From: Acholeplasma sp.
GTDB lineage: Bacteria > Bacillota_I > Bacilli_A > Acholeplasmatales > UBA5453
Length of the DNA stretch: 32,694 nt
Direction: 5' to 3'
NCBI GenBank assembly: GCA_012839355.1
Contig: DUNK01000018.1
Span: 1-32,694 of the forward strand
Both the position numbers and the translations under genes were made by a program. Every line of letters starts with the position of its first letter. Positions within the stretch are counted from its first letter, which is position 1. This document shows positions 753 through 17,325 of this stretch, in pieces. Under the pieces are notes generated by a model. The model saw nothing but the letters and a program-made list of their open reading frames with translations, made no database searches and was not told the DNA's origin.

Positions 753-760
753 AAACTCTC

Positions 761-2128
761 CTAGTAATACTTCTTAATGTTTGCTTCACTAATTCTTCTT
801 AATTCACTAACTGGAAACATTCTTAAAAGTTTCCAACCAATATCTAATGTTTCTTCAATTGAACGGTCAGTATTAAAACCCTGATTTAAATACTCTTCTT
901 CAAATCTATCAGCAAACTTAGCATAAACTTTATCAAGTTCAGATAAAGCCGCTTCACCTAAAATAGTTGATAACTCTTTTGCTTCTTTCCCTCTTGCATA
1001 ATTTGCGAATAATTGGTTCATTGTATCAGAGTGATCTTCTCTTGTTTTACCTTCTCCAATACCTTTATCTTTAAGTCTTGATAAAGATGGTAAAATGTCA
1101 ATCGGTGGTGTAACACCTTGTAAGTTTAAACTTCTTGATAAAATGATTTGTCCTTCTGTAATATAACCTGTTAAGTCAGGAATTGGATGCGTAATATCGT
1201 CTTCTGGCATCGTTAAAATAGGGATTTGTGTAACTGATCCACGATTACCTTTAATACGTCCTGATCTTTCATACAATGATGCTAAGTCAGTATACATATA
1301 ACCTGGATAGCCACGTCTACCTGGAACTTCTTTTTTAGCCGCACTAATTTCTCTTAAAGCTTCAGCGTAGTTAGTAATATCAGTCATAATAACTAAAACA
1401 TGCATTCCCAACTCATACGCTAAATATTCTGCAGCTGTAATTGCCATTCTTGGTGTTGAAATTCTTTCAACTGCTGGGTCATTAGCTAAGTTTACAAACA
1501 TAACTGTACGATCTAATGCACCACTTTTACGGAAGTCTTCGATAAAATAATTAGCTTCTTCAAAAGTAATTCCAATTGCCGCAAACACCACCGCAAAGTT
1601 TTCATGATCCCCTAAAACTTTGGCCTGTCTTGTAATTTGGGCTGCGAGACGACTGTGTGGAAGTCCTGAACTTGAGAATATCGGTAACTTTTGTCCTCTT
1701 ACAAGTGTATTAAGTCCATCAATTGCACTAACACCTGTTTGAATAAACTCATTTGGATAGTCTCTTGCATAAGGATTGATTGGTGCTCCATTAACATTAA
1801 TGTACTTTTCAGGAATAAGTGGTGCCTTATCATCTTTAAGTCTACCTATTCCATCATATACTCGACCTAACATATCTGGACTAACACCTAATTCTAATCC
1901 TCTACCTAAAAAGACCGCCTTTGCATCATCAATTTTTAAACCTTGACTACCTTCAAAAAGCTGAACTAAACTAGCCTCATCACTTACTTCTAGAACTTTC
2001 CCAATTCTCGTTCTACCTTCTTTTGGTTGAATGTAAACTAACTCATCATAAGTGACATCTTTAGTATTTTTAATTAATACTAACGGCCCGACAACTTCTT
2101 TAATTGTTTTATATTCTCTAATTGCCAT
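761..2128 (-). CDS. ntpB: V-type ATPase subunit B
   Basis: Non-catalytic (regulatory) subunit B of the A3B3 head. The 455-residue length fits the family (about 460). The nucleotide-binding region has the degenerate B-subunit form ([15 protein letters not shown]) in place of a canonical Walker A, which separates it from subunit A. Conserved segments such as [20 protein letters not shown] and [11 protein letters not shown] are present. It begins 4 bases after the ntpA TGA stop and runs directly into ntpD, consistent with coupled translation of stoichiometric subunits. It contributes to three catalytic interfaces with subunit A but hydrolyses no ATP itself, as known for the family. Confidence 0.96.
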
Positions 2129-2132
2129 ATAA

Positions 2133-3890
2133 TCACTCTCTTTCTAAGTTAGAAAACTCTTCTTTTAACTCGCTGTATAACTTATCTAAAGTCTTTTTAA
2201 ATTTATCTTCTGGAACATACTTTAATCTGCTAATTCTTTGTTTGACTTGCATATTTTCAACACTACTTAAAGCTGCTCCTGCATTGACTTTATTTGTTGC
2301 CAGTTTATGCCAGAATAAAATAATTTCTAACATCCCATATTGTTTATCAACTGATGTATATGTGTCTATCTCATCAAAAGCATTTTGGTGCAAGAAATCT
2401 TCTCTAATCATTTGTGTAGTTAATAGTTTCACTCTATCTGCTTTTGATAGTGTATCAATACCGACTAATCTAACAATTTCTTCTAACTCTTTTTCTTCAT
2501 TTAAAAGAGCCATTGTTTTATTAACTTGACCTGACCAACCATCTTTAATACTATCAAAAGAATCCATTATTACATCATCATATAATGTATAACTTCTCAA
2601 CCAGTCAATAGCCGGGAAGTGCCTTCTGTTAGCCAAATCTGATGATAAACCCCAGAACACTTTAACAATTCTTAAAGTAGCTTGTGTAACAGGCTCACTC
2701 ATATCTCCCCCTGGAGGTGAAACTGCCCCTATCGCACTGACTGCTCCATGGTTTTTATCACCAATAGTTTCAACAAGTCCTGCACGTTCATAGAACTCTG
2801 CTAATCTACTACCTAAATATGCCGGATAGCCTTCTTCACCTGGCATCTCTTCTAATCTTGAACTCATCTCTCTTAATGCTTCAGCCCATCTACTAGTTGA
2901 ATCTGCCATTATCGCAACTTTATAACCCATGTCACGGAAATATTCCGCAATTGTAATACCTGTATAAATGCTTGCTTCTCTTGCCGCAACAGGCATGTTT
3001 GAAGTATTGGCAATTAATACTGTTCGTTTCATTAAAGGTTCGCCAGTTTTAGGATCAACAAGTTTTGGGAACTCATTTAAAACGTCAGTCATTTCATTAC
3101 CACGTTCTCCGCAACCAACATAAACAATAATATCTGCATCTGCCCATTTCGCTAACTGATGTTGCACAACTGTTTTACCAGAACCAAATGGTCCAGGAAT
3201 AGCTGCAATACCGCCAATCGCAATCGGGAATAACGTATCAATAATTCTTTGACCTGTAATCATCGGTTCGGTTGGTGGCAGTTTTTTGCTGTATGGTCTA
3301 CCAACTCTAACAGGCCACTTTTGAACCATTGTATATCCTTTTTCAACATCTTTATTTTTTAGTTTATAAACTACATCTTCTATTGTATATTCGCCTTCTT
3401 TAGCAACAAATATCAGTTCGCCTTCAACATTTGGTGGAACCATGATTTTATGACGCACAACTGTTGTCTCATCAACATAACCAATCATCTGTCCAGCAGT
3501 TACTTTATCGCCTTTCTTTTTAACAGGAATAAAGGTCCATTTTTTCTTTAAATCTAATGGTTCTACTGTCACTCCACTAGCGATTAAATCTCCCGCTTTT
3601 TCATAAACTTTATCAAGTGGTCTTAATATCCCATCAAAAACCCCTTCAATTAACCCTGGCCCAAGTGTCGCACTCAAAGGTTGTTCCGTGAAAAAAACTG
3701 GTTCTCCTGGACCTACTCCAGCAGTCTCTTCGTAAACTTGAATAGAAGCGATATCGTCTCTTAACTCAATAACTTCTCCCATCAGTTTTTTATGGCCCAC
3801 ATATACAACGTCATAAACTTGTGCTGCTTCCATTCCAGAAGCTAAGACAAGCGGTCCAGATACTTTTGTTATTTTTCCATGTTTTTCCAT
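2133..3890 (-). CDS. ntpA: V-type ATPase catalytic subunit A
   Basis: Catalytic subunit of the V1/A1 head. Counting from the chosen start, the P-loop GPFGSGKT is at residues 233-240 and GERGNEM at 261-267. The long insertion before the P-loop (about residues 110-200, the non-homologous region specific to A subunits) is present. The length is 585 residues, normal for the family. The frame is open further upstream to 3968, but that extension would overlap the preceding gene; the ATG at 3890 begins the typical MxKxGKIxKVSGPLV N-terminus and is preceded by AGGTGGAG, so I use it. The stop is TGA, which helps show that UGA is not read as Trp here. Confidence 0.96.
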
Positions 3891-3903
3891 CTCTCCACCT
3901 CTT

Positions 3904-4209
3904 TTATAATATTGCCATTCCAATCGCTCGCTCAACATCTTTCTTGAGCTTTTCAATACCGATATCACTTTCTTTACCCTCTAAAGGAATAAACAGTAAA
4001 ATCGGATAGGTTTGATATTTATATTTTTCTACTACATCATCTAAGAGCGGACTTAAAGATTCGCTAATAAAAATAATCTTCGCTGTTGGTGCTAGTTCTT
4101 CTATTTTATTTTTAAGTTCAACTTCATTATTTATAATAAAAGATTCAATACCAATCCCTTGAAACAATAAAACTGTTTGAGTTGAACCTATCGCAAATAT
4201 ATCTTTCAT
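3904..4209 (-). CDS. ntpG: V-type ATPase subunit F (NtpG)
   Basis: Small subunit (101 residues, usual 100-105) of the central stalk that binds subunit D. The N-terminal [19 protein letters not shown] pattern, with an alternating beta-alpha layout and a later KIIFISESL strand, is that of V/A-ATPase subunit F (NtpG in Enterococcus hirae). It lies in the canonical position between subunits C and A, with GGAG a few bases before its ATG and only one base after the ntpC stop. Modest sequence conservation is normal for this subunit, and the operon position gives much of the confidence. Confidence 0.88.
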
Positions 4210-4210
4210 C

Positions 4211-5140
4211 CTATCGCTCCAATATAAACAACTTATCTAGTGATGTATCACGATTGTAATAAATTATTTTAATATTTTTTAATTCCATCAACTTTTCATA
4301 AATATAAGTCATAATATAACCTAAGCCTTCAGTCTTAAAACTATAGTCAATTAAAACCTTATATAAATCGGCCTCTAAATTGCTTTCTAAACTTTCTAAA
4401 TCTTTATTTCTGCGGTACTCTTCTAATGATCTCTTTACTGAAAAATAACCTAAATTATTAGCTTTTCTTTCTAACCCTTCCAGCGTACTATCGTATAACT
4501 CTATAAACTCTTTTTTACTTAATGAATTTGTTTCAAAGATGGCGTCCTCTAAAAATTCTTTTCCAAGATTTAATTTCTTAACTCTTATCACTGTAAGTAA
4601 GTTAGTAACATCTAATTTAACAGTTAAGTATTCAGTTAAAGGGGATGAACCCTTCACAGTTTCTTTCATCCTTTCAATAAAGAGGCTATCAATGATATAA
4701 TTTATCTTTTGATAATTCGTTTCTTTAATCTTTCTAATTTCACCAAAGAGTTCTTCATGTTCTTTTAAATCCATATATTTTCCATACTTTAAAGTTTGAT
4801 AAATATCACTTGGATTTATATTTCCACAATCAAGGTAAAACGCTTCAGTTTGGATGTTTTCCTTAATTTCCTTATAGATTAATTTAGTGTTTAAAACATC
4901 ATATGGATAAAAGAAAATCTTAAACTCTTTTAAATCTCCTAAAGCGTCTTCTAAATCCTTTTTAAGTGCTTTAATTTCTTTAACATATAAATGCTCAATA
5001 GATTCATTAAAGCCAAACCCATAGTTTCTTAAAAGCTCAAAAAACTTCTCATCGCTTTTTGCGATCAAAGACTCTAATTGTTGTTTAGATAATAGTTTTG
5101 TTGATTTAGCTTTAAAATAACTATTTGCATAATATGACAA
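4211..5140 (-). CDS. ntpC: V-type ATPase subunit C (d-type)
   Basis: Subunit C/d, the funnel-shaped helical protein that sits on the c-ring and docks the central stalk to it. The 309 residues are slightly short for the family (about 330). The opening (YYANSYFKAKSTKLLSKQQLESLI) and the helical repeats containing VKLDVTNLLTVIRVKKLNLG fit the vATP-synt_AC39 family. The start is TTG (5140) with AAGGTGAT five bases before it; no ATG lies at a better distance. It follows ntpE by 14 bases and is followed one base later by ntpG. Confidence 0.9.
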   Translation of the reverse strand: MSYYANSYFKAKSTKLLSKQQLESLIAKSDEKFFELLRNYGFGFNESIEHLYVKEIKALKKDLEDALGDLKEFKIFFYPYDVLNTKLIYKEIKENIQTEAFYLDCGNINPSDIYQTLKYGKYMDLKEHEELFGEIRKIKETNYQKINYIIDSLFIERMKETVKGSSPLTEYLTVKLDVTNLLTVIRVKKLNLGKEFLEDAIFETNSLSKKEFIELYDSTLEGLERKANNLGYFSVKRSLEEYRRNKDLESLESNLEADLYKVLIDYSFKTEGLGYIMTYIYEKLMELKNIKIIYYNRDTSLDKLFILER

Positions 5141-5154
5141 ATTAAATCACCTTT

Positions 5155-5766
5155 TTATTCGTATAAAATCTTATGAATTTCTCTTTCGTAAGTTCTTCTA
5201 ATTCTTTCAATTTGTGGTTCTAATGAAAAGTTTAAATCATACACTTCCCCAACTAACATAAACCCATCAGTTATCGCTGCAGGTGTTTTATCTAGTTTAA
5301 GATTATAACCTTTGCCTAACTTTTTGTTTAATAGGTCTAATTCAACTAAATTAGCACTTTTAGGAGCAGATGAAAATAACTTTAAGTAACGATTATAATC
5401 TTCCTTCTTAACTCTTACCAGTTCATTACCGGAAATCTTTTGAGCCTTAATAAGTTTATAGGTATACTCAAATAATTCACTATCATTTAAGTTAAGAAGT
5501 TTTTCTTTAAACAAACTTAAAACACGCTCAATTTGAGTGTTTTTTTCTTCTAAGATAAGTTTTTTCTTCTCCTGCTCAAACTCTAATTTCTTACTAGAAA
5601 TCTTTTTATTAGCTTCCTTTTCAGCATTGTTTAATAAAGTTGACACTTTTTTGTCTACCTTTTCTTGTTCAGCTTTAAGTAATGCTTTTTTCTCTTCTTT
5701 TGCTTCTGCTAAGATAGTTTTGGCTTGTTCATTTGCTTGTTCATAAATTAATTTTTTTAAACCCAT
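5155..5766 (-). CDS. ntpE: V-type ATPase subunit E (peripheral stalk)
   Basis: Peripheral-stalk subunit E, which pairs with the small coiled-coil subunit encoded at the head of this operon to brace the head against the membrane stator. Residues 1 to about 100 are a highly charged continuous helix rich in Lys, Glu and Ala (coiled coil); the C-terminal half is a mixed domain ending in LEPQIERIRRTYEREIHKILYE, typical of E subunits. The length of 203 residues is normal. GAGGG precedes the ATG. Confidence 0.9.
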   Translation of the reverse strand: MGLKKLIYEQANEQAKTILAEAKEEKKALLKAEQEKVDKKVSTLLNNAEKEANKKISSKKLEFEQEKKKLILEEKNTQIERVLSLFKEKLLNLNDSELFEYTYKLIKAQKISGNELVRVKKEDYNRYLKLFSSAPKSANLVELDLLNKKLGKGYNLKLDKTPAAITDGFMLVGEVYDLNFSLEPQIERIRRTYEREIHKILYE

Positions 5767-5782
5767 TTCTTATCCCTCTTTT

Positions 5783-6253
5783 TTAAAATGAAAGCCAAAT
5801 TAATACTGTAACTAATAACGCTAATAATTGTGTAGTCTCAACCATCGCTGCTAAAATCATACCTCTAGTTGCTAAACTAGAATCTTTCCCTGTCATTGTA
5901 ATAGCTGATGCTGCAACTTGCCCTTGGTAAATACCAGAAACTAGTCCAACTAAAGCAACCGGAATTGATGCAAACAAGTATGCAAAGCCTTGATGTGCTG
6001 TTAAAGTTGCTAAATCACCACCAACGATACCTAACTTGGTTAAATATAAAGCTGCAACTAAGAAACCATAAATTGCTTGTGTACCAGGAAGCGCTTGAAT
6101 TACTAAAACTCTACCATATAAATCTGGTTTTTCAGGCAATACTCCTGATGCTGCATTACCAGCTTTTGCCATTCCTACTGCACTACCAATAGGTCCTAAT
6201 GATGCTGCAATTGCAACACCTACTAACGCCATAACCATTCCAAAATTCATCAT
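5783..6253 (-). CDS. ntpK: V-type ATPase membrane rotor subunit K (16-kDa proteolipid)
   Basis: The c-ring proteolipid that carries the transported ion. It has 156 residues with four hydrophobic helices (two fused hairpins), the same length as Enterococcus hirae NtpK. Aligned by eye to NtpK, the Na+ ligands are all present: Leu55, Thr58, Gln59 and Tyr62 in LPGTQAIYG, Gln110 in GIYQGQ, and the essential carboxylate Glu139 in MVET. From the established NtpK structure this set predicts Na+ coupling; that is inference here. The start overlaps the ntpI stop by four bases (ATGA), with GGAGG nine bases before it. Confidence 0.96.
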   Translation of the reverse strand: MMNFGMVMALVGVAIAASLGPIGSAVGMAKAGNAASGVLPEKPDLYGRVLVIQALPGTQAIYGFLVAALYLTKLGIVGGDLATLTAHQGFAYLFASIPVALVGLVSGIYQGQVAASAITMTGKDSSLATRGMILAAMVETTQLLALLVTVLIWLSF

Positions 6254-8196
6254 ACTTCATTTCCTCCAAAATCTTTATTATTTATTACTTCATTTAAATG
6301 ATTTAACTCTAACGATAATGGTCTAAAACTTCTTCCATCACCATCAAAGAATTGTCCATAGAATTCAACATATTGTAATCTTGAGTCATGAATATAAGTT
6401 GATAATAAACCCATCGCTATATTGAATATATGACCAACTACATATATAACTATTGATAACAATATTCCAAATATATTACCAGCCAACATTCCTGCAAGTG
6501 TATTAAATGTAAAAGCGATAACTGCTGTTGATAATGCTAGTGCTAATAATCTTGAATACGAAAGGATATTAGATAATTGGTTAACTAATCCATATAAACC
6601 GCCAAGTTTTCCTGTAATAGCTTTTAAAATTCCTTGATTGTTGCTGGTAAAAACTAACACTAAGAATACACCTAAAATAATTACGCTTACTCCTACCCAC
6701 ATACTTAAACTTGGTAGAACGAATGTTAAAACTACTAACCCTAATCCTGTTAATATTAACACAATTGCAATACCTTCACCAATTGCTCCCTGCCAATCTT
6801 TTAATTTAAACAAGCGAATCGCTTTTAAGATTAAGCCATGGTTTATTTGGAAAAACCCTAAGATAAGAGCGTATATTAACATAGTTAAGGCATCATTGAT
6901 AGGATTTAATAACACAAGTGTCCACTTTTGATTAAAGAGTGAACCGATTATCGCACCTAAATCAAAATCAAACCCAAAGAATGAACCATGAAGTATTCCA
7001 AAGAGAACTGTTGTAAAACCTCCATAGAATAACACCGTAAGTAGTTTTCTTGTTCCGCCTTTTGGCTTTAAATACTTAATCGCAAGTCCGCAAGCTAAAA
7101 TTAATAATAATCCATAACCAATATCACCCATCATAATCCCAAAGATTATCCAATACCAAATACTCATTGATGGGTTAGGGTCTAAGTCTGTACCACCTGG
7201 AGTCCCAAATTGTTCTGTTATCATTTCAAACGGTTCAACAAACTTATTGTTTTCTAGTGCCGTAGGAACAATCTCATCATCCGCTACTACTGCATCTTCT
7301 AACTCATATGCAATCTCGTTTTTTGTTAAAACTTCTTTTAATTCGTTTTCTCTTTTTGATTTAATCCAACCATTAATTTTAACAATATTTAATTCTTCTG
7401 AATGAACTTCATAAGGAGCTTGTTTTCTTACTTTATCACTTGCGATTTGATCAGCATAAATATATAAATCATTCAAGTTTTGTAAATAAGAACTAACCTC
7501 TTTTTGAGTTTCTTTTAACAACACTTCATATTGAATTTTTTCTATTTTGAAATTATCAATATATTCACTTATATTGCCATCATAAACTGGCATTTTCACT
7601 TCTTTAAAATCTAGTCTTTTTGCTTCTTGTAAGTATGTTTTTTCATCAGACTTTAATACGGCAAACGTTATAGCTACGCCTCTTTTATCTTCTCCAAAAA
7701 AACTATGAGCTATATCATTTCGAATAAATAATTCCTTTAATTCTTCAACTTTTTTCTCATGAATAAAACCATGATAAAAATCGATATATCTTGTCCTAGA
7801 CATATCTTCTAAATTTAATTCATTGTTGATAAAAGGCAGATAGTTTTCTATCTCTTTATCTAAATCTTTTATTTTTAATGCTTGTGTGTTTTCTCTTTTT
7901 TCTAATCCTTCAATCGTCTCTAAAAGTTTTAAGTAGTTTCCTGAACGATCATCAAACTCTTCGTACGATGCTTCTTTGTAGTTGAAAAACTTTCGTTTCT
8001 CACGAAATCCTTCTAAATACTTAATCGTTTGACCTATTCTAAAAATTAACTCTTCATCTTTACTGACATCTTCTGTTTTACTTGAGTTATCGTTACCTTC
8101 AATCATCATAAATTGATTCATTTGAAGTATCTTCATTAACTCTTCATATTGATTTTTTGTAACATAAAGATTGACCTTTTTAACAGCTACCTTCAT
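6250..8196 (-). CDS. ntpI: V-type ATPase membrane stator subunit I (a subunit)
   Basis: Stator subunit that forms the ion half-channels against the c-ring and anchors the peripheral stalks. The 648 residues fit the family (about 660). Residues 1 to about 340 are a soluble, coiled-coil-rich cytoplasmic domain; the rest has about seven to eight membrane segments. The conserved arginine region LSYSRLLALALSTAV and the later HDSRLQYVEFYGQFF motif near the C-terminus are both present; these carry the arginines needed for ion release in the family. The start overlaps the preceding gene by four bases and the stop overlaps ntpK by four bases, indicating coupled translation. Confidence 0.95.
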   Translation of the reverse strand: MKVAVKKVNLYVTKNQYEELMKILQMNQFMMIEGNDNSSKTEDVSKDEELIFRIGQTIKYLEGFREKRKFFNYKEASYEEFDDRSGNYLKLLETIEGLEKRENTQALKIKDLDKEIENYLPFINNELNLEDMSRTRYIDFYHGFIHEKKVEELKELFIRNDIAHSFFGEDKRGVAITFAVLKSDEKTYLQEAKRLDFKEVKMPVYDGNISEYIDNFKIEKIQYEVLLKETQKEVSSYLQNLNDLYIYADQIASDKVRKQAPYEVHSEELNIVKINGWIKSKRENELKEVLTKNEIAYELEDAVVADDEIVPTALENNKFVEPFEMITEQFGTPGGTDLDPNPSMSIWYWIIFGIMMGDIGYGLLLILACGLAIKYLKPKGGTRKLLTVLFYGGFTTVLFGILHGSFFGFDFDLGAIIGSLFNQKWTLVLLNPINDALTMLIYALILGFFQINHGLILKAIRLFKLKDWQGAIGEGIAIVLILTGLGLVVLTFVLPSLSMWVGVSVIILGVFLVLVFTSNNQGILKAITGKLGGLYGLVNQLSNILSYSRLLALALSTAVIAFTFNTLAGMLAGNIFGILLSIVIYVVGHIFNIAMGLLSTYIHDSRLQYVEFYGQFFDGDGRSFRPLSLELNHLNEVINNKDFGGNEV

Positions 8197-8498
8197 AAAA
8201 CAATTACCTCTAGTAATTTCTTAACTGTGTTATCAACCTTTTTATCGATATCTTTGCTTAAAGATTTTTTCAATTCCTTTAATTCTTTTTCAAAGTCTTC
8301 AGTCAATTTTTGTAGTTCTTTTTCGGTATTCTTATTTAATTCTTTAATCTTTGCTTCAACATCTTTAAGTTTTTCGCTTTCATATTCTTTAATAGAAAGT
8401 TCTACTTCTTCTTTAACTTTCTCTTTTTTCTTTAAAGCATTATTAACAATTTTAGATGCTTCCTTTTCAATTTCTAATAAAGTCTTTAATTCTTGCAA
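8193..8498 (-). CDS. ntpF: V-type ATPase small coiled-coil stalk subunit (subunit H/G type)
   Basis: First gene of the operon, about 101 residues, almost entirely Lys/Glu/Leu coiled coil with no globular domain. Its position and character match the small peripheral-stalk partner of subunit E (NtpF in Enterococcus hirae, AhaH in archaea). Start choice: the frame is open from a GTG at 8507, but that GTG lies inside the Shine-Dalgarno TGAGGTGG, so I take the TTG at 8498, five bases after it. The product cannot be recognised by sequence identity alone because coiled coils look alike; the context is decisive. Confidence 0.83.
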   Translation of the reverse strand: MQELKTLLEIEKEASKIVNNALKKKEKVKEEVELSIKEYESEKLKDVEAKIKELNKNTEKELQKLTEDFEKELKELKKSLSKDIDKKVDNTVKKLLEVIVL

Positions 8499-8534
8499 GA
8501 AAACCACCTCACATTTTATTTTAAAGCCTTAAAT

Positions 8535-8613: not shown

Positions 8614-11600
8614 TCAACTTAAATATAAACTAGTCTCTTTTCTTTCTGCGTAAAAATATAATGGCATATTGTACGATGCAACAATTCCCGCACCTGGTTC
8701 AAAGTAAGTATAACCTGCATCTTTCAATCTAACTAAATATGCATAGAATGCCTCATATAAATCTGCATGAATCATTACTTCATCATAAACACTTTCAAAA
8801 ATTGATCTATTAAAATTGTTATAGAAAAAGTAATCATTTGTCGCAACTCTATAATATTCGTAATCATCGATACTATCATAAGGGATTTTTAAATATGTAT
8901 ATGTTTCACGATTGTATAATGTCTTTAAATCTGCTCCTGTTATTTCTACGCTAACAACTCTATTATCAAATGGAGAAACCTTGAAAACATCACTGGCCAT
9001 TATTGAACCTTGATAAATAGATGCTCTTGTACCGCCTGAGTTTTGAATTCCTAAAACTGCTCCTTCTGCTTCGCTTACCATCAATTTAGCAATGAAAAAC
9101 GCAAGTTCGCTTTGACTTAAATTTCTATTAGCTTTAATTATTTCTTCTTCATATAAATGTCTTACAGAATCATAATAAGTGTTAATAATAAATTCTATTT
9201 CCATATCTGGTGAATTTAAGTGTTCATGATTATAAAGATTAGTTATTGATGAGTTAACAAGCGAATATCCCGTATTTTTATTAATTAGTAGTTCCATTCT
9301 ACCTACTCTTTGTCCGTTGCCACCACTTTGCATACAAGGAATATCATTTGGATAAAATTGTTCAACTTGATGTGTGTGCCCATTAAATATTCCTCTTACT
9401 TTTGGAAGCGTTGATACAGCATTATTAAAGCTAGAATCACTGTCGTGATTAACTACTAAAACAAAATCAACTAAACTTTCAATTTCATTAATTGTATCAC
9501 TAACAGCTGTATAAGGATCTGCAAAATAATAATCTTCTACTCGGTATCTCATAATACTACTTTCTAAACCCTTGCCAATAACACCGATAATACCAATTCT
9601 ATAACTTCCTCTTGTAATAATAACGTGACTATCAATAAACTCTGGTCTTTCATTATCAACCTTTCTCTTAACATTCGCAGCCAAGAGTGGAAAGTTCGCT
9701 TTTACACCTGTTGTATTTGGGTCAAAATATGATAAAATAACATCTAATCCCCAATCAAACTCGTGGTTTCCCAACACAAACGCATCAAGACCAATATTAT
9801 TAAATATTTCTATCATCACTGCTCCCTTACTTGAATTAGATAATAGTTCACCTTGAAACATATCTCCACCAGTAATAAAGATTGAATCTTGGTCTGATTC
9901 TTTTTTAATATAATTACCAATCTTCGCTAATCCTAGTTCATAACCATTATTTAAAATTGCTCCATGAGTATCGTTTAAATAAAAGATTTTAAAGAGTTTT
10001 TCTTCTGGGTCAGTGTAAGTGCCAACCTTATTAATTTCTAAATTACTACCAATTCCAACAAAATAATAACCATTATAGATTAAGATAACACTCTTAAGTT
10101 CAACTATATCATTTACTTTTAACTCTCTTAAAAGCTCATAATTAGCAAAATAATACCTAATATCATATATCGCACTCAATGTAAGTCCATCAGTTTCTAA
10201 AGTAAAGATTAGTTTATTCCCAACATCATTAATGTTAGTTATAACTAGACCATCATGGTCAATTAAGCGATATTTAAAGTTCGTTAGTGTCGTATAACCA
10301 GTAATGTTTACACTATTTGGAACAGGTTGAGTAAACGAATATTTAAGCACTACATCCATACTTGTTTCTGCAACAGTCAAGTACCCGATAGTTGTTTTTG
10401 TAACATATGCAGCTATTTCTGTGCCCTTTTTATAGCCTATGTTTTCTAAATCTCTAGTATTATAGCCTGTTATTTTAACTAAAGTAGCGCCTGTCTCGTC
10501 TTCGATGCTTATATATTCATATAAACTAAATGAAGTGATAATTCCGGTTATGACTGCTCGTTCACCTTCATCTAACAACATAAAACTAGAAATGTTTATA
10601 TTATTAGATTCTATATCCATCCATTTAGCAGTTAATACACAGTTTTTTGTAACTTTAAATGGGAAATTAACTATTTCATTATTGTAAGTCCAACCTAAAA
10701 AGAATGAATATAACTTTTCTGGATTAGTTTCTGGAGCATCAATAAAACTGCCACTAACAATGTCTGTTATAGAATCAGGCGTATAATTCCCCCCGTCACT
10801 ATTGAAAGTTACAGTATATGTTTGGACTAATTCATGCCATTTAGCAATTAATGTTATGTTTTCTATAATTGGTGTATCAAAATCAAATGGTTGTTCATTT
10901 AAATACCAACCGATAAATGTATAACCTTCTCTAGTTGAAGGAGTTAACTCTTCCACTTTATTTCCTTCATTTATTTGTCTAACTGTTTTTATACCATCAT
11001 AGCCATAATCAAAAGTAACATTATATCTTTTAACCGGAACGACTACTTCTTCCCATTTAGCATAAAGAGTTATATCACTAGTAATTATTGTATCAAACCC
11101 AAACAGCTGATTATCTAAATACCAACCTAAGAAGTTATAACCTTCTCTATCTGCAAGAATTAATTCTTCGACTCTACTACCTTCTTCTACTTGTTTAATC
11201 GTTGTTAGAGAATCGTAACCATGATTAAATGTAACTGTATATTTAATAGTCGGATTAGAAGTTATTTCCTCCCATTTGGCAGTTAAACTTATGTGACTAG
11301 TAACCTCACTATCAAAATCATATAATACATCGTTCAAATACCAACCTAAAAAAGTATAACCCTCTTTAGTAGGTTCTTCTGGTTCTATTGCCTTATTTTT
11401 ATAATTAACTAATTGTCTATTAATACCATCAACATCAAAATTTACTCTATATGATCTTATATTCCATTTACCTTTTAACACAAGATCTTCTTTAACAACT
11501 TCGTTAAAGTTATAAGGTTCATCACCTTGATACCAGTCAAGAAAAGTATACCCTTCTCTTTCAGGGTCTTGTGGTCTAGTAACTCTAGTGTTTTTATCTA

Positions 11601-11736
11601 TTTCAACAACTTCATAAGTTTGTTCATCATACCCTAACAAAAATGTTACTGTTTGGGTTTGTTTAAAACATCCTACCACAAAAAGTAAGCCAAATATCGT
11701 TGTTAATAAATATAATGTTCGTTTAAACTGTTTCAC
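8614..11736 (-). CDS. Surface lipoprotein: InlB-type repeats plus 5'-nucleotidase/metallophosphatase
   Basis: Large (1040 residues) exported lipoprotein. A basic, hydrophobic signal ends in a VVGC lipobox with Cys23. Residues about 29-372 hold five Listeria-Bacteroides (InlB B-type, Flg_new) repeats, each with GY-F-GWY in the middle and closing with AKW or GKW. About 380-570 are two beta-rich, OB-like segments. From about 583 comes a calcineurin-like metallophosphatase of the UshA/5'-nucleotidase family: NDTHG (588-592), GGD (623-625), GNHEFD (656-661), NHD (763-765) and NGHTH (785-789). The C-terminal nucleotidase substrate domain follows, with NSGGTR at 899-904. It probably dephosphorylates extracellular nucleotides or related phosphoesters at the cell surface, supplying nucleosides and phosphate; the exact substrate is not determinable. 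Its ATG overlaps the stop of the upstream lipoprotein by four bases. Confidence 0.88.
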   Translation of the reverse strand: MKQFKRTLYLLTTIFGLLFVVGCFKQTQTVTFLLGYDEQTYEVVEIDKNTRVTRPQDPEREGYTFLDWYQGDEPYNFNEVVKEDLVLKGKWNIRSYRVNFDVDGINRQLVNYKNKAIEPEEPTKEGYTFLGWYLNDVLYDFDSEVTSHISLTAKWEEITSNPTIKYTVTFNHGYDSLTTIKQVEEGSRVEELILADREGYNFLGWYLDNQLFGFDTIITSDITLYAKWEEVVVPVKRYNVTFDYGYDGIKTVRQINEGNKVEELTPSTREGYTFIGWYLNEQPFDFDTPIIENITLIAKWHELVQTYTVTFNSDGGNYTPDSITDIVSGSFIDAPETNPEKLYSFFLGWTYNNEIVNFPFKVTKNCVLTAKWMDIESNNINISSFMLLDEGERAVITGIITSFSLYEYISIEDETGATLVKITGYNTRDLENIGYKKGTEIAAYVTKTTIGYLTVAETSMDVVLKYSFTQPVPNSVNITGYTTLTNFKYRLIDHDGLVITNINDVGNKLIFTLETDGLTLSAIYDIRYYFANYELLRELKVNDIVELKSVILIYNGYYFVGIGSNLEINKVGTYTDPEEKLFKIFYLNDTHGAILNNGYELGLAKIGNYIKKESDQDSIFITGGDMFQGELLSNSSKGAVMIEIFNNIGLDAFVLGNHEFDWGLDVILSYFDPNTTGVKANFPLLAANVKRKVDNERPEFIDSHVIITRGSYRIGIIGVIGKGLESSIMRYRVEDYYFADPYTAVSDTINEIESLVDFVLVVNHDSDSSFNNAVSTLPKVRGIFNGHTHQVEQFYPNDIPCMQSGGNGQRVGRMELLINKNTGYSLVNSSITNLYNHEHLNSPDMEIEFIINTYYDSVRHLYEEEIIKANRNLSQSELAFFIAKLMVSEAEGAVLGIQNSGGTRASIYQGSIMASDVFKVSPFDNRVVSVEITGADLKTLYNRETYTYLKIPYDSIDDYEYYRVATNDYFFYNNFNRSIFESVYDEVMIHADLYEAFYAYLVRLKDAGYTYFEPGAGIVASYNMPLYFYAERKETSLYLS

Positions 11737-12776
11737 TCAATCCTTCCTTTATTTAAATCTATTTCTAAATATAATTCTTCATTTATACCATTACTTGTTA
11801 AAGACACTTTTAAGCCAATTTTTGAAGCTGTCGGATTATTTTCAATATATCTATTTATATAATCTTTGTTAATTACTAATGTTGAGAAAACTTCAATTCT
11901 ATAATCAACATTCACATTTAACCCTTCTATTTTTGTAATTACATAATCTTTAAATGAAAACTTATACTTAACATCTTCACCAACATAAGGTTGAATATAA
12001 AAAGACTCTAATTCATATGGTTCAGGTAATATTAAAACTCGCTTCATAACATTTTCTTCACCTGAAACGCTTATATATGTTTCACCACCATGTTTAGAAA
12101 TTAAAGATGGCGATAATCTGACGTTTTCTTCTCTCACAGAGACACCATATGCTTTACTTCCGTTCATGTAAACCTCTTTAGCCTTATAGGCTCTTATGAT
12201 ATATGGTGAGTTTTTAAATATTCTTATCATATTATAATCTAACGTAATTGTTTGGTCAGAAATTACTTTTTCTTCCATATAAACTTTTAATCTTATTTCA
12301 TTAACTCCCTCTTTTAAACTTTGAGGGATAGGAAATACATTTTGAGTAACTATAACTGTTTTTAAAGCTAGATTTTCAAAATAATTAATTTCATATGTTG
12401 CTCCATCAACAGCTTCCCAGTACAAGCTCTCTCCATCTGAATACATTAATAATTTAACATTATCACTTACAACAAATGTTATTGTATTGGAATAAATCGA
12501 TTCTTTATTTTTAAAAACTGCTTTAATTTTTACTCTATATAATCCTTTATCACTTTCTCTAAATGAATACTCGTTTGTTTCTGATTCGTATAAGATACCA
12601 TTAATATCTAAAATATAATGAGTTGCCTTATTAACTTTATCCCAATTTAAAGTATATGTTTTTAAATCATAATTGATATTAACTGGTCCAGCAACTGGCT
12701 TATCAGCACATGAAAAAAGAAATGACATTACTAATGTTATTACAAGTAATAAATATAGTGATTTTATCTTTCTCAT
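11733..12776 (-). CDS. Lipoprotein with FnIII-like beta-sandwich domains
   Basis: 347-residue exported lipoprotein of unknown function. The N-terminus MRKIKSLYLLL leads into a membrane segment ending in LFSC, with Cys23 as the lipid-bearing residue. Two similar segments follow: YTLNWDKVNKATHYILDINGILYE and LYWEAVDGATYEINYFENL both have the W-x(3-4)-A-x-Y pattern of fibronectin type III-like sandwiches. The last 150 residues are beta-rich and unrecognised. The frame is open from an earlier ATG, but the ATG at 12776 directly before the signal peptide has AGAGGGTG in front of it, so I use that. A four-base overlap couples it to the nucleotidase lipoprotein; it may help dock or display that enzyme (inference). 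Confidence 0.75.
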   Translation of the reverse strand: MRKIKSLYLLLVITLVMSFLFSCADKPVAGPVNINYDLKTYTLNWDKVNKATHYILDINGILYESETNEYSFRESDKGLYRVKIKAVFKNKESIYSNTITFVVSDNVKLLMYSDGESLYWEAVDGATYEINYFENLALKTVIVTQNVFPIPQSLKEGVNEIRLKVYMEEKVISDQTITLDYNMIRIFKNSPYIIRAYKAKEVYMNGSKAYGVSVREENVRLSPSLISKHGGETYISVSGEENVMKRVLILPEPYELESFYIQPYVGEDVKYKFSFKDYVITKIEGLNVNVDYRIEVFSTLVINKDYINRYIENNPTASKIGLKVSLTSNGINEELYLEIDLNKGRIE

Positions 12777-13001
12777 GCCAACACCCTCTTTTATCAAATT
12801 AAATAAATTGTACAACAATTATATTTCATATACTATTATACTCTATATTTGTTTTTATGATAAGATTTTTAATTTTTAATTTTTATATTTTATAACATAT
12901 TGTTATAACGATGTGTATTATGTTATATACATTAATCAATTCAATAATTTTTATTTAACTTTTTATGAAATTGTTTTCATTGTTTATAACAGCTTTTTCA
13001 T
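12777..13001. promoter_or_regulatory. Divergent AT-rich intergenic region
   Basis: Lies between the minus-strand lipoprotein operon and the plus-strand CBM-like gene and holds no plausible gene. It contains a perfect palindrome at 12806-12820 (AATTGT-ACA-ACAATT) 30 bases before the lipoprotein start, a second at 12890-12908 (TTATAAC-ATATT-GTTATAA), and several further GTTATA half-sites. A minus-strand TATAAT at 12840-12835 could be the -10 of the lipoprotein operon, but I find no good -35 at the right distance. Confidence 0.5.
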
Positions 13002-13061: not shown

Positions 13062-13388
13062 AAAAATGTTAGGCATGATAAAAGAAATGAGCAAAGTTTT
13101 GAAACGTACACAGTTTCATTGGTTGATATTAACGGTGGAACAACAACTGATACAACACCTTTTACTTTAAATAGTGTTGTAACAGCAACTATAGTTGATG
13201 CTACAGATTATAATGATTTAATCGTCACTAACCTGAGCATTGATAACCCGACCTTAATAATTGGAGGCCCTGCTGCTACTGTTACTATTACTGTATCGCT
13301 AACTGAACCATCAACTGTTGCTATTTATAATCTAATAAGAGGAAAAGTTGTTAACTTACTAACAACTTTTAGTGTGACAAGGCAATGA
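13062..13388 (+). pseudogene. Probable remnant of a secreted beta-rich protein
   Basis: A frame open from 13062 encodes a Thr/Val/Ile-rich sequence (VDINGGTTTDTTPF through TVTITVSLTEPST) that reads like the C-terminal part of an extracellular beta-sandwich protein, but there is no signal peptide. The only start at the beginning of its conserved-looking part is a TTG at 13119 without a Shine-Dalgarno; the GGAG at 13036-13039 has no start codon behind it in this frame. The stop overlaps the next ATG by four bases (ATGA), as in an intact operon. I therefore read it as a gene that lost its 5' end by deletion while promoter and downstream coupling survived. A short intact gene with a TTG start is the alternative. 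I do not recognise the family. Confidence 0.45.
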
Positions 13389-13987
13389 AAAAGAAACTAT
13401 TATTCATTATTTTATCGTTCATATTTATAGGTTCAATTACTATTAGTGCCGTTTGGTATCAAATTCCTAACAACGTATCACAAACCGCTGAACAAAACCT
13501 TAATTTAGGTTATTGGCATACAGGCATTGTTTATGATTACGACCAAAACGCCAATTATAAAAAGGATGATTTAGTAATCAAAAATGGCGTTTTATATGTA
13601 GCTTTGCGCAACATTAATTCAAATGATAATTATCATGATCCTGAAGTCCCAAACACTAATTTGCTCGTTCCAATGAGATGGAGTGAATCTACTAAAGAAT
13701 ATCGTAGTTTTCACCGTTATGTCGTTAATGATTATGTATATTATGAAGGCACATATTATATAAGAAAAACTTTGCCGCACGATCCTAATACATTTACGCA
13801 ACAACCACCAACTCAAACTATTTATTGGGAAGAAGTTACTAATGTTAATCCACTTCACTGGTTTCCTTATGTAGTTTATTATGAAGGTCAAAAAGTTTTT
13901 TATAACAATCAAACTTATGAATGTATTAGAGGCGGTTTTAAAAACGTAAAACCATCATCAAGTTCATCTTATTGGACACAAGTATAA
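13385..13987 (+). CDS. Secreted protein with three chitin-binding-like (CBM5/12-type) modules
   Basis: 200 residues with an N-terminal signal peptide or anchor (KKK followed by about 18 hydrophobic residues, possible cleavage after ISA near residue 22). The rest is three related modules of about 45-50 residues: roughly 50-102, 105-150 and 155-200. Each has an aromatic-rich Y-x(2)-D/G-x-V...G-x-x-Y core and ends in an aromatic-containing W-E/T/S strand (MRWSES, IYWEEV, SYWTQV). This spacing is that of ChtBD3/CBM5/12 carbohydrate-binding modules. No catalytic domain is present, so it is a binding protein; chitin or another amino-sugar polymer is the likely ligand by family analogy. The ATG overlaps the stop of the preceding remnant, and no strong SD of its own is evident. 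Confidence 0.6.
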   Translation: MKKKLLFIILSFIFIGSITISAVWYQIPNNVSQTAEQNLNLGYWHTGIVYDYDQNANYKKDDLVIKNGVLYVALRNINSNDNYHDPEVPNTNLLVPMRWSESTKEYRSFHRYVVNDYVYYEGTYYIRKTLPHDPNTFTQQPPTQTIYWEEVTNVNPLHWFPYVVYYEGQKVFYNNQTYECIRGGFKNVKPSSSSSYWTQV

Positions 13988-14048: not shown

Positions 14049-14163
14049 GATTGTTTTATTGTTCAATTTAGTGTATTATAATATTGGACCATTTTTTAGG
14101 GAGAAAAAGATTGTCTCATCTTATCAAAACATAATTATTTTATTATTAAATGAGGTTTTATAC

Positions 14164-15264
14164 ATGTATGAACAAAGAATTTTTGAAAACTTTGACATTA
14201 AAGAAAAATTTATTTCTGTTATTCCCTATGGTAACGGTCATATCAATGATACTTTTTTAGTGCAGACCAAAGGAAAAATTAAAGTAAAACAATACATCCT
14301 ACAAAGAATCAACCACCGTGTTTTTAAAAACGTTGAAGGTTTAATGAATAATATAGAAATTGTAACTGCATATGTAAATATTAATTTTCCTGGTAATGAG
14401 TATCAAAAAATCATTAAAACCAAGGATAATAAGAATTATTACTTTTGCAGCGACACATACACATATTGGCGAGTTTATACCTTTGTAGAAGACGGTGTTT
14501 CTTTTGATGATATTGTTGAACCAAATCTATTTTATGAAACCGGCTTAGCTTTTGGTGAGTTTCAAAAATACATCCAAGATTTGAACGCTGAAAAAATCGT
14601 TGAAACTATCGCTAACTTTCATAACACAAAAATCCGCTTTAAAAATTTTGAAACTAGTGTCAATCTTGATTTAGTAGATAGAGTTCGCTTAGCGAAGCCT
14701 GAAATAGATTTTTTACTATCAAAGAAAGATTATGCTCCCGTTATAGTAGATTTACTAGAAGAGAAAAAAATACCATACAGAATTACCCACAACGATACTA
14801 AGCTAAATAATGTTATTTTTCATAAAACAACTAAAAAAGCTTTATCAGTTATTGATTTAGATACAATAATGCCTGGCTCAATTCTTTATGATTTTGGTGA
14901 TGCCATAAGATATGGAGCGAATAAAGGTAAAGAAGACGATAGAGATTTAACAAAAGTTGGAATTGATTTAAATTTATTTGAACTATTTACAAAAGGCTTT
15001 TTAGAAAACACAGCTAAAATGATGAATAAGACCGAGATTGAGCACCTTGCCTTTAGTGCATTACTAATGACTTATGAGTTATCAATGCGGTTCTTAGAGG
15101 ATTATTTGAATGGTGATAAATACTTCAAAGCAAGTGATGATGAACACAACCTAAGAAGAGCGAGAGCCCAAATAGCCTTAATGAAAGATATTGAAAAAAA
15201 TTTAGACAAAATGAATCTAATCGTTAAAAATATTTATAATGATTGTATGAAAAAGGATTCTTAA
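14164..15264 (+). CDS. APH/choline-kinase-fold sugar kinase, N-acetylhexosamine 1-kinase-like
   Basis: 366-residue phosphotransferase of the aminoglycoside phosphotransferase fold. The nucleotide loop is at PYGNGHIND (21-29), the catalytic loop at THNDTKLNNVIF (208-219) and the metal-binding DLD at 231-233, followed by MPGSILYDFGDAIRYGAN. The HNDTKxxNVxF...IDLDTxMPGxxxYDFGDxIR pattern is that of the branch containing Bifidobacterium NahK, which phosphorylates GlcNAc/GalNAc at C1, rather than of antibiotic kinases. The substrate is inferred. An earlier in-frame ATG at 14059 exists, but GAGG lies eight bases before the ATG at 14164 and homology begins there. It sits downstream of the chitin-binding-like gene, which suits amino-sugar salvage. 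Confidence 0.7.
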   Translation: MYEQRIFENFDIKEKFISVIPYGNGHINDTFLVQTKGKIKVKQYILQRINHRVFKNVEGLMNNIEIVTAYVNINFPGNEYQKIIKTKDNKNYYFCSDTYTYWRVYTFVEDGVSFDDIVEPNLFYETGLAFGEFQKYIQDLNAEKIVETIANFHNTKIRFKNFETSVNLDLVDRVRLAKPEIDFLLSKKDYAPVIVDLLEEKKIPYRITHNDTKLNNVIFHKTTKKALSVIDLDTIMPGSILYDFGDAIRYGANKGKEDDRDLTKVGIDLNLFELFTKGFLENTAKMMNKTEIEHLAFSALLMTYELSMRFLEDYLNGDKYFKASDDEHNLRRARAQIALMKDIEKNLDKMNLIVKNIYNDCMKKDS

Positions 15265-15266
15265 TT

Positions 15267-15299
15267 AAAAAACAGTTACTTTGATTTAACTGTTTTTTT
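15267..15299. terminator. Bidirectional terminator between convergent genes
   Basis: AAAAAACAGTT and AACTGTTTTTT form an 11-bp stem around a ten-base loop, with a T run for either direction. It serves the kinase gene and the nucleotidyltransferase gene, whose stop codon overlaps its edge. Confidence 0.85.
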
Positions 15300-16455
15300 A
15301 TAATCCCATCTTCTTAAAGACTTCTTCTAAATTTTCAACATCATCATCGTTTTTACCAGCAGTTTTTAACTCTTTTAACTTAGCTTTAGTATATTTTCTT
15401 TTTCTAAAGATAAACTTAAATCCCCTCATCAAATACGCAAATGGTAATAAAAACGGCAAATATTTTAACCATGGATAGTTTTCCTTCATGTATGCCCATG
15501 TAGGGAACACAAGTCTCAAAAACGTTCTAAATTTTCCTTTTTTTGCCACTCGCGGAGCCATTACATTAATGTTTCCACTTTTTCCATGAATGCCAGACAA
15601 ACAAATATAATCTAACATTTGTTGGTAATCTTCTTCTTCAACTTTAAAGTCTTTATCCAAGAATGGCGAATCAAGATCTAAAGCTTTTTTATTTATATAT
15701 AACATTGTCTGGAAAAACATTTCTAAATTAGTTTCTTTTAAAAGTTCATGTAAAGTCTCTTTATTAATTTCTTTTTCATAGTAATTAAAAAAGATTGTAA
15801 TGTCTAAAACACTTCTAATGCCTATTCCGCTTGATAGAACGTGTTTTTTCAAGTGATATAGTAAATATACTCCTTCAAATGCATAATCAAGTTTATATTG
15901 ATAATGTTCCATTTTTAGAGCATAATCCCATACTCTTAATAAAGGACTATTATCTTTGCTGCCTTCTTTTACATATATATATCTATGTACTTCTACAAAA
16001 TAATCATCATATAAATAAACATCATGTTCAGCTGTTCTGCTATAGTTTTTAAAACCTGCTTCTTTAAAAATTATTCTAGATTCTTCGCTTTTTTCTTTTC
16101 TAATAACAACATCAATATCACCCATCGGACGGTAATAACTCTCAGGATATATTTCTTTTAAATGTGTTCCTTTTAGAAAAATATGATCAATACAATTATC
16201 ATTAAACGCTTCATTAACCTTTTTTATTAGTCTTTTTTGTACATCATCATTATATACATTTGCGAAAAAATGTTTCTTTAATTTTTTATAGTTCTCTGAA
16301 GAAAAAACACCTTCATCTACACCAACATATAAAAGAGGTATTAATCCATTAGTCTCTGCTTGAATTAAAATCTCTTTTTCATCTTCAGCTTTTTTAGCAT
16401 ATTTTTCGCCTTTTAATGCACATTTAATTATTTCTAAAAATTGTTTGTTTGTCAT
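15298..16455 (-). CDS. NTP_transf_5-type nucleotidyltransferase
   Basis: 385-residue protein of the uncharacterised nucleotidyltransferase family PF14907. The Pol-beta-like core shows HIFLKGTHLKEIYP (91-104) and RPMGDIDVVI (109-118), with Asp113 and Asp115 as expected metal ligands. The remainder is helical with a basic, partly hydrophobic segment near residues 310-355 (WLKYLPFLLPFAYLMRGFKFIFRKRK), which may touch the membrane. In Firmicutes this family recurs beside PqqD-like proteins in peptide-modification loci such as some lasso-peptide clusters; the target molecule is unknown. Its ATG overlaps the stop of the peptidase gene by four bases, making it the third gene of a coupled cassette. 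Confidence 0.8.
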   Translation of the reverse strand: MTNKQFLEIIKCALKGEKYAKKAEDEKEILIQAETNGLIPLLYVGVDEGVFSSENYKKLKKHFFANVYNDDVQKRLIKKVNEAFNDNCIDHIFLKGTHLKEIYPESYYRPMGDIDVVIRKEKSEESRIIFKEAGFKNYSRTAEHDVYLYDDYFVEVHRYIYVKEGSKDNSPLLRVWDYALKMEHYQYKLDYAFEGVYLLYHLKKHVLSSGIGIRSVLDITIFFNYYEKEINKETLHELLKETNLEMFFQTMLYINKKALDLDSPFLDKDFKVEEEDYQQMLDYICLSGIHGKSGNINVMAPRVAKKGKFRTFLRLVFPTWAYMKENYPWLKYLPFLLPFAYLMRGFKFIFRKRKYTKAKLKELKTAGKNDDDVENLEEVFKKMGL

Positions 16456-16874
16456 TTTATTCTCTTAAATAGTTTAATAATTATCCTTCTTGGTAATAAT
16501 CTATAAATAAACACTTTAAATCTGTATTTTTTACTAGTTACAAAAATCTCTTTCTTCTTATTTTTATAAGATACTAACTCTGCAATTAATGATTCTTTTT
16601 TAACTGTTTCTCTTTTAACATTACCATCACCTCTAAAGATTAAATCTTCACCTTTTATCTTAACAAGGCGGTGAATAACGTGTCTTCCTTCAAATTCAAA
16701 AAGATAACTTTTTCCTTTTTTAATTTCTGTAATTTTCGCTAGTTTAACTTTTGTTTTATTCTCTTTAAAAAACGGCCACATTGATGTGCCAGTTACTGTT
16801 AATGTTACATCAGAAACTTCTAAAAGTGCATCAATATCATCAAAAACATTAATGCCTTTATCCTTTTCCATCAT
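16452..16874 (-). CDS. S24/S26-family peptidase (signal-peptidase-like)
   Basis: 140-residue protein with signal peptidase/LexA-type motifs: TGTSMWPFF with candidate nucleophile Ser31, HVIHRLVKI with His68 where classical bacterial SPase I has Lys, and FRGDGNVKRE (80-89). A Ser/His pair is the ER/archaeal/SipW-type arrangement. There is no N-terminal membrane anchor; instead the C-terminus (KKYRFKVFIYRLLPRRIIIKLFKRIK) is strongly basic and amphipathic, which could hold it at the membrane. Start at ATGATG overlapping the PqqD stop by four bases. The substrate is unknown. The context suggests cleavage of a peptide handled by the neighbouring PqqD-like protein (inference). Confidence 0.72.
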   Translation of the reverse strand: MMEKDKGINVFDDIDALLEVSDVTLTVTGTSMWPFFKENKTKVKLAKITEIKKGKSYLFEFEGRHVIHRLVKIKGEDLIFRGDGNVKRETVKKESLIAELVSYKNKKKEIFVTSKKYRFKVFIYRLLPRRIIIKLFKRIK

Positions 16875-17134
16875 ATAATATCGTTTAACTTGAGCATTTC
16901 AACGAATTCGCTGACATCTTTAGCTGCAACATCTTCTTCAACTTCATAGTTATCAAGTAAAATATTAACCAGATCTTTTTCTTCTAAATCATCTTCCATC
17001 AAAGCTTCAAATAATAGCTTTGCTGAGTCATTTAAATGGATGATATAGTCAAAGTCAACCTCTCTTTTTTCTGTTGACACTACGATATTTTCGCCAGCAA
17101 CTTCTCTAACTAAATAGCCTTTTTTGATTTTCAT
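16871..17134 (-). CDS. PqqD-family RiPP recognition element protein
   Basis: 87 residues over a complete PqqD domain: GYLVREVAGENIVVST (6-21), the central IIHLNDSAKLLFEAL (31-45) and EEKDLVNILLDNYEVEEDVAAKDVSEFVEML (51-81). PqqD proteins are small winged-helix peptide-binding chaperones that present leader peptides to modifying enzymes in ribosomally made peptide pathways. No precursor peptide or known tailoring enzyme (radical SAM, cyclase, B2-type protease) is seen within the window. AAAGGAGC precedes the ATG. It begins 31 bases after tRNA-Leu, so it may be read through from the tRNA promoter. Confidence 0.83.
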   Translation of the reverse strand: MKIKKGYLVREVAGENIVVSTEKREVDFDYIIHLNDSAKLLFEALMEDDLEEKDLVNILLDNYEVEEDVAAKDVSEFVEMLKLNDII

Positions 17135-17165: not shown

Positions 17166-17250
17166 TGGTGCAGAGAAAGGGACTCGAACCCTCACGACAT
17201 CTGTCATATGGCCCTCAACCATACGCGTCTACCAATTCCGCCACCTCCGC
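17166..17250 (-). tRNA. tRNA-Leu (anticodon GAG)
   Basis: 85-base type II tRNA. On the minus strand it starts GCGGAGG, with D-arm GCGGAATTGGTAGACGC, anticodon stem TATGG/CCATA around loop TTGAGGG (anticodon GAG, reading CUC/CUU), a long variable arm (TGACAGATGTCG), T-arm with TTCGAGT and an encoded CCA end. The acceptor stem pairs fully with two G-U pairs. Confidence 0.97.
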
Positions 17251-17264
17251 ATTTTTACTACCTT

Positions 17265-17293
17265 ATTATATCAAATTATAACATTACTTTCAA
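17265..17293 (-). promoter_or_regulatory. Promoter of tRNA-Leu
   Basis: TTGAAA (17293-17288), 17-base spacer, TATAAT (17270-17265), ending 14 bases before the tRNA 5' end. It may also feed the PqqD cassette, since no terminator separates the tRNA from it. Confidence 0.75.
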
Positions 17294-17299
17294 AACATA

Positions 17300-17322
17300 A
17301 AAAAAAAAGAGGCCGGAGCCTC
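17300..17322 (-). terminator. Terminator of fakA
   Basis: GAGGCTCCGGCCTC hairpin (17322-17309) followed on the minus strand by a run of T, just after the fakA stop. Confidence 0.85.
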
Positions 17323-17325
17323 TAA

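Follow-up and report, generated by a model that had tools for sequence, protein, structure and literature searches.

What task is served by three genes, encoding a PqqD-family protein, a peptidase and a nucleotidyltransferase-fold enzyme, that are joined end to end on an Acholeplasma contig with no visible substrate beside them? The window, by which we mean the whole 32,694-nucleotide stretch analyzed, is contig C16 of a 0.96-Mb draft genome (G000) that is 86% complete, so that absences from this genome are soft evidence. On its minus strand lie the genes for an 87-aa stand-alone RRE of the PqqD family (16871–17134), a 140-aa soluble S24/S26-type serine peptidase (16452–16874), and a 385-aa PF14907 nucleotidyltransferase-fold enzyme (15298–16455). 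ATGA-type 4-bp overlaps join these ORFs (16871–16874 and 16452–16455), as the initial annotation had described. That annotation read the trio as a minimal peptide maturation route in which the S26-like protein stands in for the customary leader protease. We put at about 0.7 the probability that the trio forms the common core of a RiPP-like system for modifying peptides, one that draws on scattered precursors and on a kinase encoded on contig C40; its chemistry we infer from sequence comparison.

The surroundings of the cassette suggest how it may be expressed. The gene for tRNA-Leu(GAG) (17166–17250, minus strand) lies 31 bp upstream of pqqD and occupies the place of a kinase gene in relatives. 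A promoter-like site with an extended −10 element, TTGAAA-17-TATAAT (17265–17293, minus strand), lies upstream of the tRNA gene and the cassette; it is a consensus match only, and such sites are no commoner in the cassette region than in shuffled sequence. It is preceded by the terminator (17308–17323) of the upstream fakA-like gene, and no terminator was found between the tRNA gene and pqqD. Given the promoter-like site before the tRNA gene and the uninterrupted stretch after it, tRNA-Leu(GAG) and the cassette are probably co-transcribed.

No cyclase or transporter adjoins the cassette in the window, in agreement with the initial annotation. An APH/choline-kinase-like protein (14059–15264, plus strand) is a syntenic neighbor of the cassette in a sister species, with 56% identity to the gene beside the L040 cassette, and is probably outside the system. 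A fibronectin-like lipoprotein (11733–12818, minus strand) is a possible accessory: many relatives encode homologs of it close to a cassette or precursor (25 gene matches in such loci, some being the same gene in overlapping loci). The window also carries a V/A-type ATPase operon (120–8507), in which several subunits were identified; a gene for a secreted protein of 1040 aa that combines five List_Bact repeats with a 5'-nucleotidase/metallophosphoesterase module (8614–11736); and one for a small protein that looks exported and bears CBM_5_12 carbohydrate-binding modules (13385–13987), which has no homolog in the cassette and precursor loci compared.

The identities proposed earlier for the two outer proteins hold, each matching its profile above cut-off. 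The PqqD protein scores 43.2 bits against PF05402 (cut-off 23.4; E = 5e-11), and its closest NCBIfam models are the lasso B1/PqqD families. It is the single PqqD-domain match in the window genome; the related genomes G001 and G032 likewise have one each. The PF14907 protein scores 132.9 bits against a cut-off of 31.2 (E = 1.9e-38), and its G112-D113-x-D115 and E155-x-H157 motifs are invariant in the alignment. Sequence search found no solved relative of it; its AlphaFold2 model (pLDDT 88.9) resembles ANT(2'')-Ia, which is an aminoglycoside nucleotidyltransferase, and LnuA (E values of 3e-3 or worse) and, weakly, FKRP. Its sequence relatives come first from Acholeplasmataceae (nearest 56% identity), including the cultured Acholeplasma laidlawii, A. 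granularum, A. equifetale, Peloplasma and Paracholeplasma, and then from Izemoplasmatales, Erysipelotrichales and Clostridia. A plasmid search gave one weak Butyrivibrio match and nothing further.

The middle protein carries GTSMWPF, VIHRLV and GDGN boxes with Ser31, His68 and Asp83. It scores below cut-off against both Peptidase_S24 (20.2 bits, cut-off 23.3) and TIGR02228, the archaeal-type signal peptidase I (26.1 bits, cut-off 51.85), and a sequence search for solved relatives returned only insignificant internalin B matches. Its AlphaFold2 model (pLDDT 85.9) matches the C-domains of LexA and UmuD and the signal peptidases SpsB and SipA. Ser31, His68 and the G82-D83 box do not vary in 17 aligned homologs. 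The N-terminus, MMEKDKGINVFDDIDALLEV, contains no hydrophobic stretch, nor do those of the aligned homologs, which indicates that there is no N-terminal membrane anchor; the C-terminus forms two basic helices in the model (115–126 and 129–138). The earlier description of a Ser31/His68 signal-peptidase-like protein with a basic C-terminus and no anchor agrees with these data. Since its S24/S26 homology is weak by sequence, leader cleavage by this protein is assumed; being found with PqqD, it is probably a cytosolic leader peptidase.

Twenty or more relatives carry these genes together again, mostly in one order, so that the grouping is not due to chance. The complete operon in relatives reads kinase-PqqD-S24-PF14907, the first gene encoding an HprK/ScmC-like protein, and in one family a type-I-like ABC exporter gene stands between the S24/S26 and PF14907 genes. 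Several of the parts are fused: kinase to PqqD in one genus (363-aa proteins), and kinase to S24/S26 protein in G022 and G052 (one frame, 370 or 382 aa) and at locus L181.

The neighborhood comparison proposed with the initial annotation also revealed a conserved small ORF. In relatives, an ORF of 35–50 aa lies just after or near the cassette and encodes YxxPxIExxEFExxDSIAxS...EEIWG, that is, an N-terminal Y-x-x-P-x-[IL]-E, an EFExxDSIAxS block and an EEIWG-like end. The window contains no small ORF with this motif or a WG end, and a profile search of it was equally negative. The same profile found three copies in the window's own genome, all on other contigs: C14 (1070–1183, plus strand; MRKEYEKPILEVVEFEYDVSTQSVGSVDFDLSDSNWW), C30 (261–374, minus strand; MRKEYEKPTLEVIEFEYDVLTESVGSVDFDLKDSNWW) and C36 (30355–30483, minus strand; MKKTYEKPIIEVMIFEYDVLSASVPQGSAEVEIDVGEKWFGK). 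The suggestion that the substrate is encoded elsewhere is borne out to this extent. The C14 and C30 copies differ at 11 codons synonymously and at 5 non-synonymously (dN 0.069, dS 1.47) and are under purifying selection.

Across 64 peptides aligned on the tyrosine (Y0, by construction), proline occupies position 3 in 62 and I, L or V position 5 in 61, and a serine lies 19 residues after the tyrosine in 53. Outside the seed alignment these columns persist: P3 in 36 of 38 peptides, E or D at position 6 in all 38, A17 in 31 and S19 in 34. The core that follows varies in sequence and length. Two classes can be told apart: class A, with SIAxS...EEIWG, and class B, with GSxNVxxWW. The precursors of the window species belong to class B; they lack the SIAxS block and have serine at position 18, not 19. 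The peptide has no NCBIfam or Pfam family, its matches to DUF4315, MPN214 and LolA2 being weak and below threshold. A near-identical class-A precursor was observed at L158 (G257:C66) and L112 (G003:C16), in genomes of two families; as G257 has no PF14907 gene, contamination or recent transfer is possible there.

Most precursor ORFs overlap, or end 0–25 nt before, the gene of a large, apparently secreted protein whose N-terminal signal sequence was judged by a crude hydrophobicity score; the copies at L106, L070 and L073 have no secreted protein directly following. Some 300 N-terminal residues form a domain common to the class-A partners, matched in 56 genes, a number that includes double counts where loci overlap. 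Those of class B share a domain of the GASIRxxGxQGLRF type, and beyond these domains the partners are diverse (GDPD, pectate lyase, LTD, List_Bact repeats). Examples of partner genes are found at L035 (10638–13238), L037 (6469–8982) and L105 (1177–4368).

Peptide and enzymes also go together across whole genomes. Among 61 relatives, part of which supplied precursor seeds, the precursor was found in 26 of 26 genomes with a PF14907 match over cut-off and in 1 of 35 without (a weak match; p = 2e-16). For the short S24/S26 protein the counts are 26 of 26 and 1 of 35, and for the kinase 25 of 26 and 2 of 35, the single exception among the positives being a cassette cut by a contig end. Seven genera mix positive and negative members, and within them precursor and PF14907 track each other, bar one weak match. 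As an out-of-sample test, the precursor profile was run on a phylum sample of 392 genomes, no seed having come from outside the window's own order. Outside that order it detected the precursor in 18 of 25 PF14907-positive genomes, missing it in 7, and in only 4 PF14907-negative ones (Fisher p about 3e-20, using an assumed, conservative 290 double negatives). The PF14907 gene lies far from the other parts in several genomes, so this co-occurrence does not require linkage.

These data bear on the view that the small ORFs are cis-acting leader peptides for the secreted-protein genes downstream and that the cassette is unrelated to them, serving, for example, to modify surface polysaccharides or carriers. 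The position of most ORFs directly before such genes would suit it, and NCBIfam names other HprK-related kinase systems (TIGR04352, TIGR04355). We nevertheless consider it unlikely, because selection acts at the amino-acid level, the Tyr-Pro-Ser spacing is fixed over the 64 peptides, some copies have no secreted protein behind them, and the ORF follows the cassette from genome to genome.

Additional enzymes in some clades bring a second alternative. In clusters of the Izemoplasmatales type, a radical SAM protein is encoded ahead of the kinase, and at L183 the two are fused; such clusters were seen at L179 (1057–2022), L186 (11962–12924), L183 and L180, and several of their peptides end in CGEEIF/Y-like sequences rather than EEIWG. 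The peptide could accordingly end up as a small cofactor or redox-type compound, in the manner of PQQ or mycofactocin, for use by a secreted partner, instead of being secreted as a phospho- or glycopeptide. A PqqD-type RRE accompanied by radical SAM enzymes, and a precursor paired with one secreted protein family, are compatible with such a product. It is quite improbable, however, in view of the variable core, from which PQQ and mycofactocin precursors differ, and of the lack of a radical SAM gene in the window cassette and in most of the Acholeplasmataceae cassettes compared.

The kinase gene heads the operon in most relatives and is missing from that of the window; in a related genus, a kinase homolog (L071, G003) occupies the same tRNA-Leu/fakA/rpmB site. 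The window genome encodes a paralog outside the operon, on C40 (3836–4540, plus strand). The motifs that are invariant in the kinase alignment, which includes this C40 protein, comprise Walker A (S148, G151, K152, T154), NDDK (N169-D170-D171-K172) and, in PFSG, P188, S190 and G191. The kinases, like the peptides, fall into two classes: class A of 270–290 aa and class B of 235 aa, whose genes in G001, G003, G022, G032 and G052 lie no more than a few kb from a class-B precursor. Both precursor classes and both kinase classes occur in G001 and G032 alongside a single PqqD, and the window species has class-B peptides, the class-B C40 kinase and one PqqD, that of the window. On these grounds the trio looks like a shared core and the kinases like the class-specific part, as far as the incomplete genome can tell.

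In several genomes, a gene for a secreted GHL10 glycoside-hydrolase-like protein comes next after the class-B kinase gene or lies near it; on C40 (L069) this gene spans 4527–5555, and L070, L073 and L117 have the same pattern. The order in G003 is kinase-PqqD-S24-GHL10-like protein. Two orphans, a kinase (G028:C1:969448-970239) and a short S24/S26 protein (G044:C1:1105920-1106312), occur in genomes with neither PF14907 nor the precursor and are possible remnants.

An operon that has no kinase, in a genome where no class-A peptide was found, might itself be a decaying remnant, whose remaining genes stopped working once the kinase and the class-A peptides were lost. This is very unlikely, since all catalytic residues and both overlaps are intact, and the genome retains a complete class-B kinase as well as three class-B precursors, two of the latter under purifying selection. 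The initial annotation would have given up the idea of one system had the three genes rarely co-occurred or had close homologs of the peptidase lost the catalytic pair; they do co-occur, and the pair is conserved. That the trio forms part of one system is supported by linkage, fusions, the precursor family and co-occurrence; that it is minimal is not, as the system also includes the kinase encoded outside the operon, the scattered precursors and, in other clades, an exporter or radical SAM enzymes.

Least probable of all, and rejected on the PF13471 test, is a lasso-peptide cluster with its cyclase and B2 protease elsewhere in the genome: lasso clusters of Bacillota are known to contain PqqD, an HprK-like kinase and PF14907 and to use a YxxPx[IL] leader, but the B2 protease profile exceeds its cut-off in only 1 of 52 PF14907-positive genomes, G000 not being among them, and no conserved Asp or Glu is apparent at core positions 7–9 (64 peptides up to Tyr+25; leader/core boundary inferred).

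For the preferred reading, a shared RiPP-like core, lasso enzymology offers a guide to the steps. In lasso precursors, the PqqD-like B1 protein binds the Y, P and L of YxxPxL, located at −17, −14 and −12; the HprK-like kinase BsfK phosphorylates core Ser3, and B1 speeds the reaction (PMC10368454). A triple Ala change of YxxPxL in BsfA did not stop phosphorylation, so the motif may be dispensable for the kinase step (PMC10368454). In pseudomycoidin, PsmK phosphorylates a Ser (PMC9266682), and PsmN, an annotated nucleotidyltransferase, is required for hexose addition (PMC9266682; PMC8498205).

By analogy with the B1 recognition motif, PqqD, the sole RRE found in the genome, would bind the N-terminal YxxPx[IL] of the precursor. 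The HprK/ScmC-like kinase may then phosphorylate a Ser or Thr about 16–19 residues after the Tyr; in the lasso YxxPxL register, Ser19 would be core position 3. By the PsmN parallel, the PF14907 enzyme could add a sugar or nucleotide to that phosphate. The soluble Ser31/His68 peptidase would remove the leader beside conserved small residues, S-I-A in class A. Signal peptidases prefer small residues at −3 and −1, which an S-I-A preceding the core would fit. The product would then be exported, in some clades by the dedicated ABC transporter. Because most precursors lie directly upstream of its gene, the large Sec-secreted partner protein may, more speculatively, be what the product acts with or on. 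This route is proposed on the strength of the lasso kinase and PsmN parallels, the near-absence of PF13471 and the occurrence of an S24/S26 protein in every PF14907 carrier among the 61 relatives. Linkage, fusions, the precursor family and near-perfect co-occurrence likewise favor the original idea that an S26-like enzyme would replace the usual leader protease.

A broader proposal, to which we give somewhat less than even odds, is that these loci form a RiPP class not described before, at home in Bacilli (Acholeplasmatales, Izemoplasmatales, Erysipelotrichales and further Bacillota), that makes linear phospho-glyco- or phospho-nucleotidyl-peptides with one common RRE, S26-type peptidase and PF14907 enzyme and with class-specific kinases, each peptide being paired with its own large secreted protein and acting jointly with it at the cell surface. 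If true, an undescribed RiPP branch would exist in Acholeplasma relatives, whose reduced genomes are an unlikely place to look for such products; cytosolic removal of the leader would fall to an enzyme of the signal-peptidase type; and tailoring by kinase and PF14907, which until now was known from lasso peptides, would operate without the lasso. Annotation pipelines will miss the precursors, as the libraries searched hold no family model for them, and the profile built here makes them searchable. PF14907, named 'Uncharacterised nucleotidyltransferase' in Pfam, gains a clear genetic context and a candidate substrate residue, and Acholeplasma laidlawii, a carrier available in culture, opens the way to direct tests.

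We compared the system with those already described. Among open-access papers, those on these protein families dealt with lasso peptides or RiPPs of other chemistry and described no matching system, and no paper on SynChlorMet was found. SynChlorMet (NCBIfam TIGR04249 ScmC, ScmE/ScmF) is similar in that, among named families, the kinase matches ScmC best and radical SAM enzymes occur in some clades. It differs in that the kinases score only 27.9, 23.4 and 36.1 bits against the ScmC cut-off of 125, and neither the PF14907 plus S24/S26 core nor the YxxP precursor could be tied to it. The HprK-related kinase A/B systems (TIGR04352, TIGR04355) belong to the same kinase family, with scores of about 20 bits against a cut-off of 200. 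The cassette peptidase shares SM.P, HR and GD boxes with Ser/His type I signal peptidases (SipW, Sec11, archaeal) and has a predicted fold like that of SpsB and SipA; unlike the membrane enzymes, it has no anchor, is 140 aa long and is found with PqqD. The phosphorylated or glycosylated lasso peptides (paeninodin, pseudomycoidin with PsmK/PsmN, and the BsfK system) share with it a stand-alone PqqD RRE (B1), an HprK-like kinase, an annotated nucleotidyltransferase, the YxxPx[LI] leader motif and a Ser near the expected modified position. In contrast to those clusters, a soluble S24/S26 peptidase is always present here where no transglutaminase-type B2 protease was detected, and the precursors, in which no conserved ring acceptor was seen, often lie away from the enzymes, beside secreted-protein genes. 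Thus, the window holds the shared core of a real multi-part RiPP-like system, which resembles the tailoring part of phosphorylated lasso clusters and, by the PF13471 test, is distinct from them.
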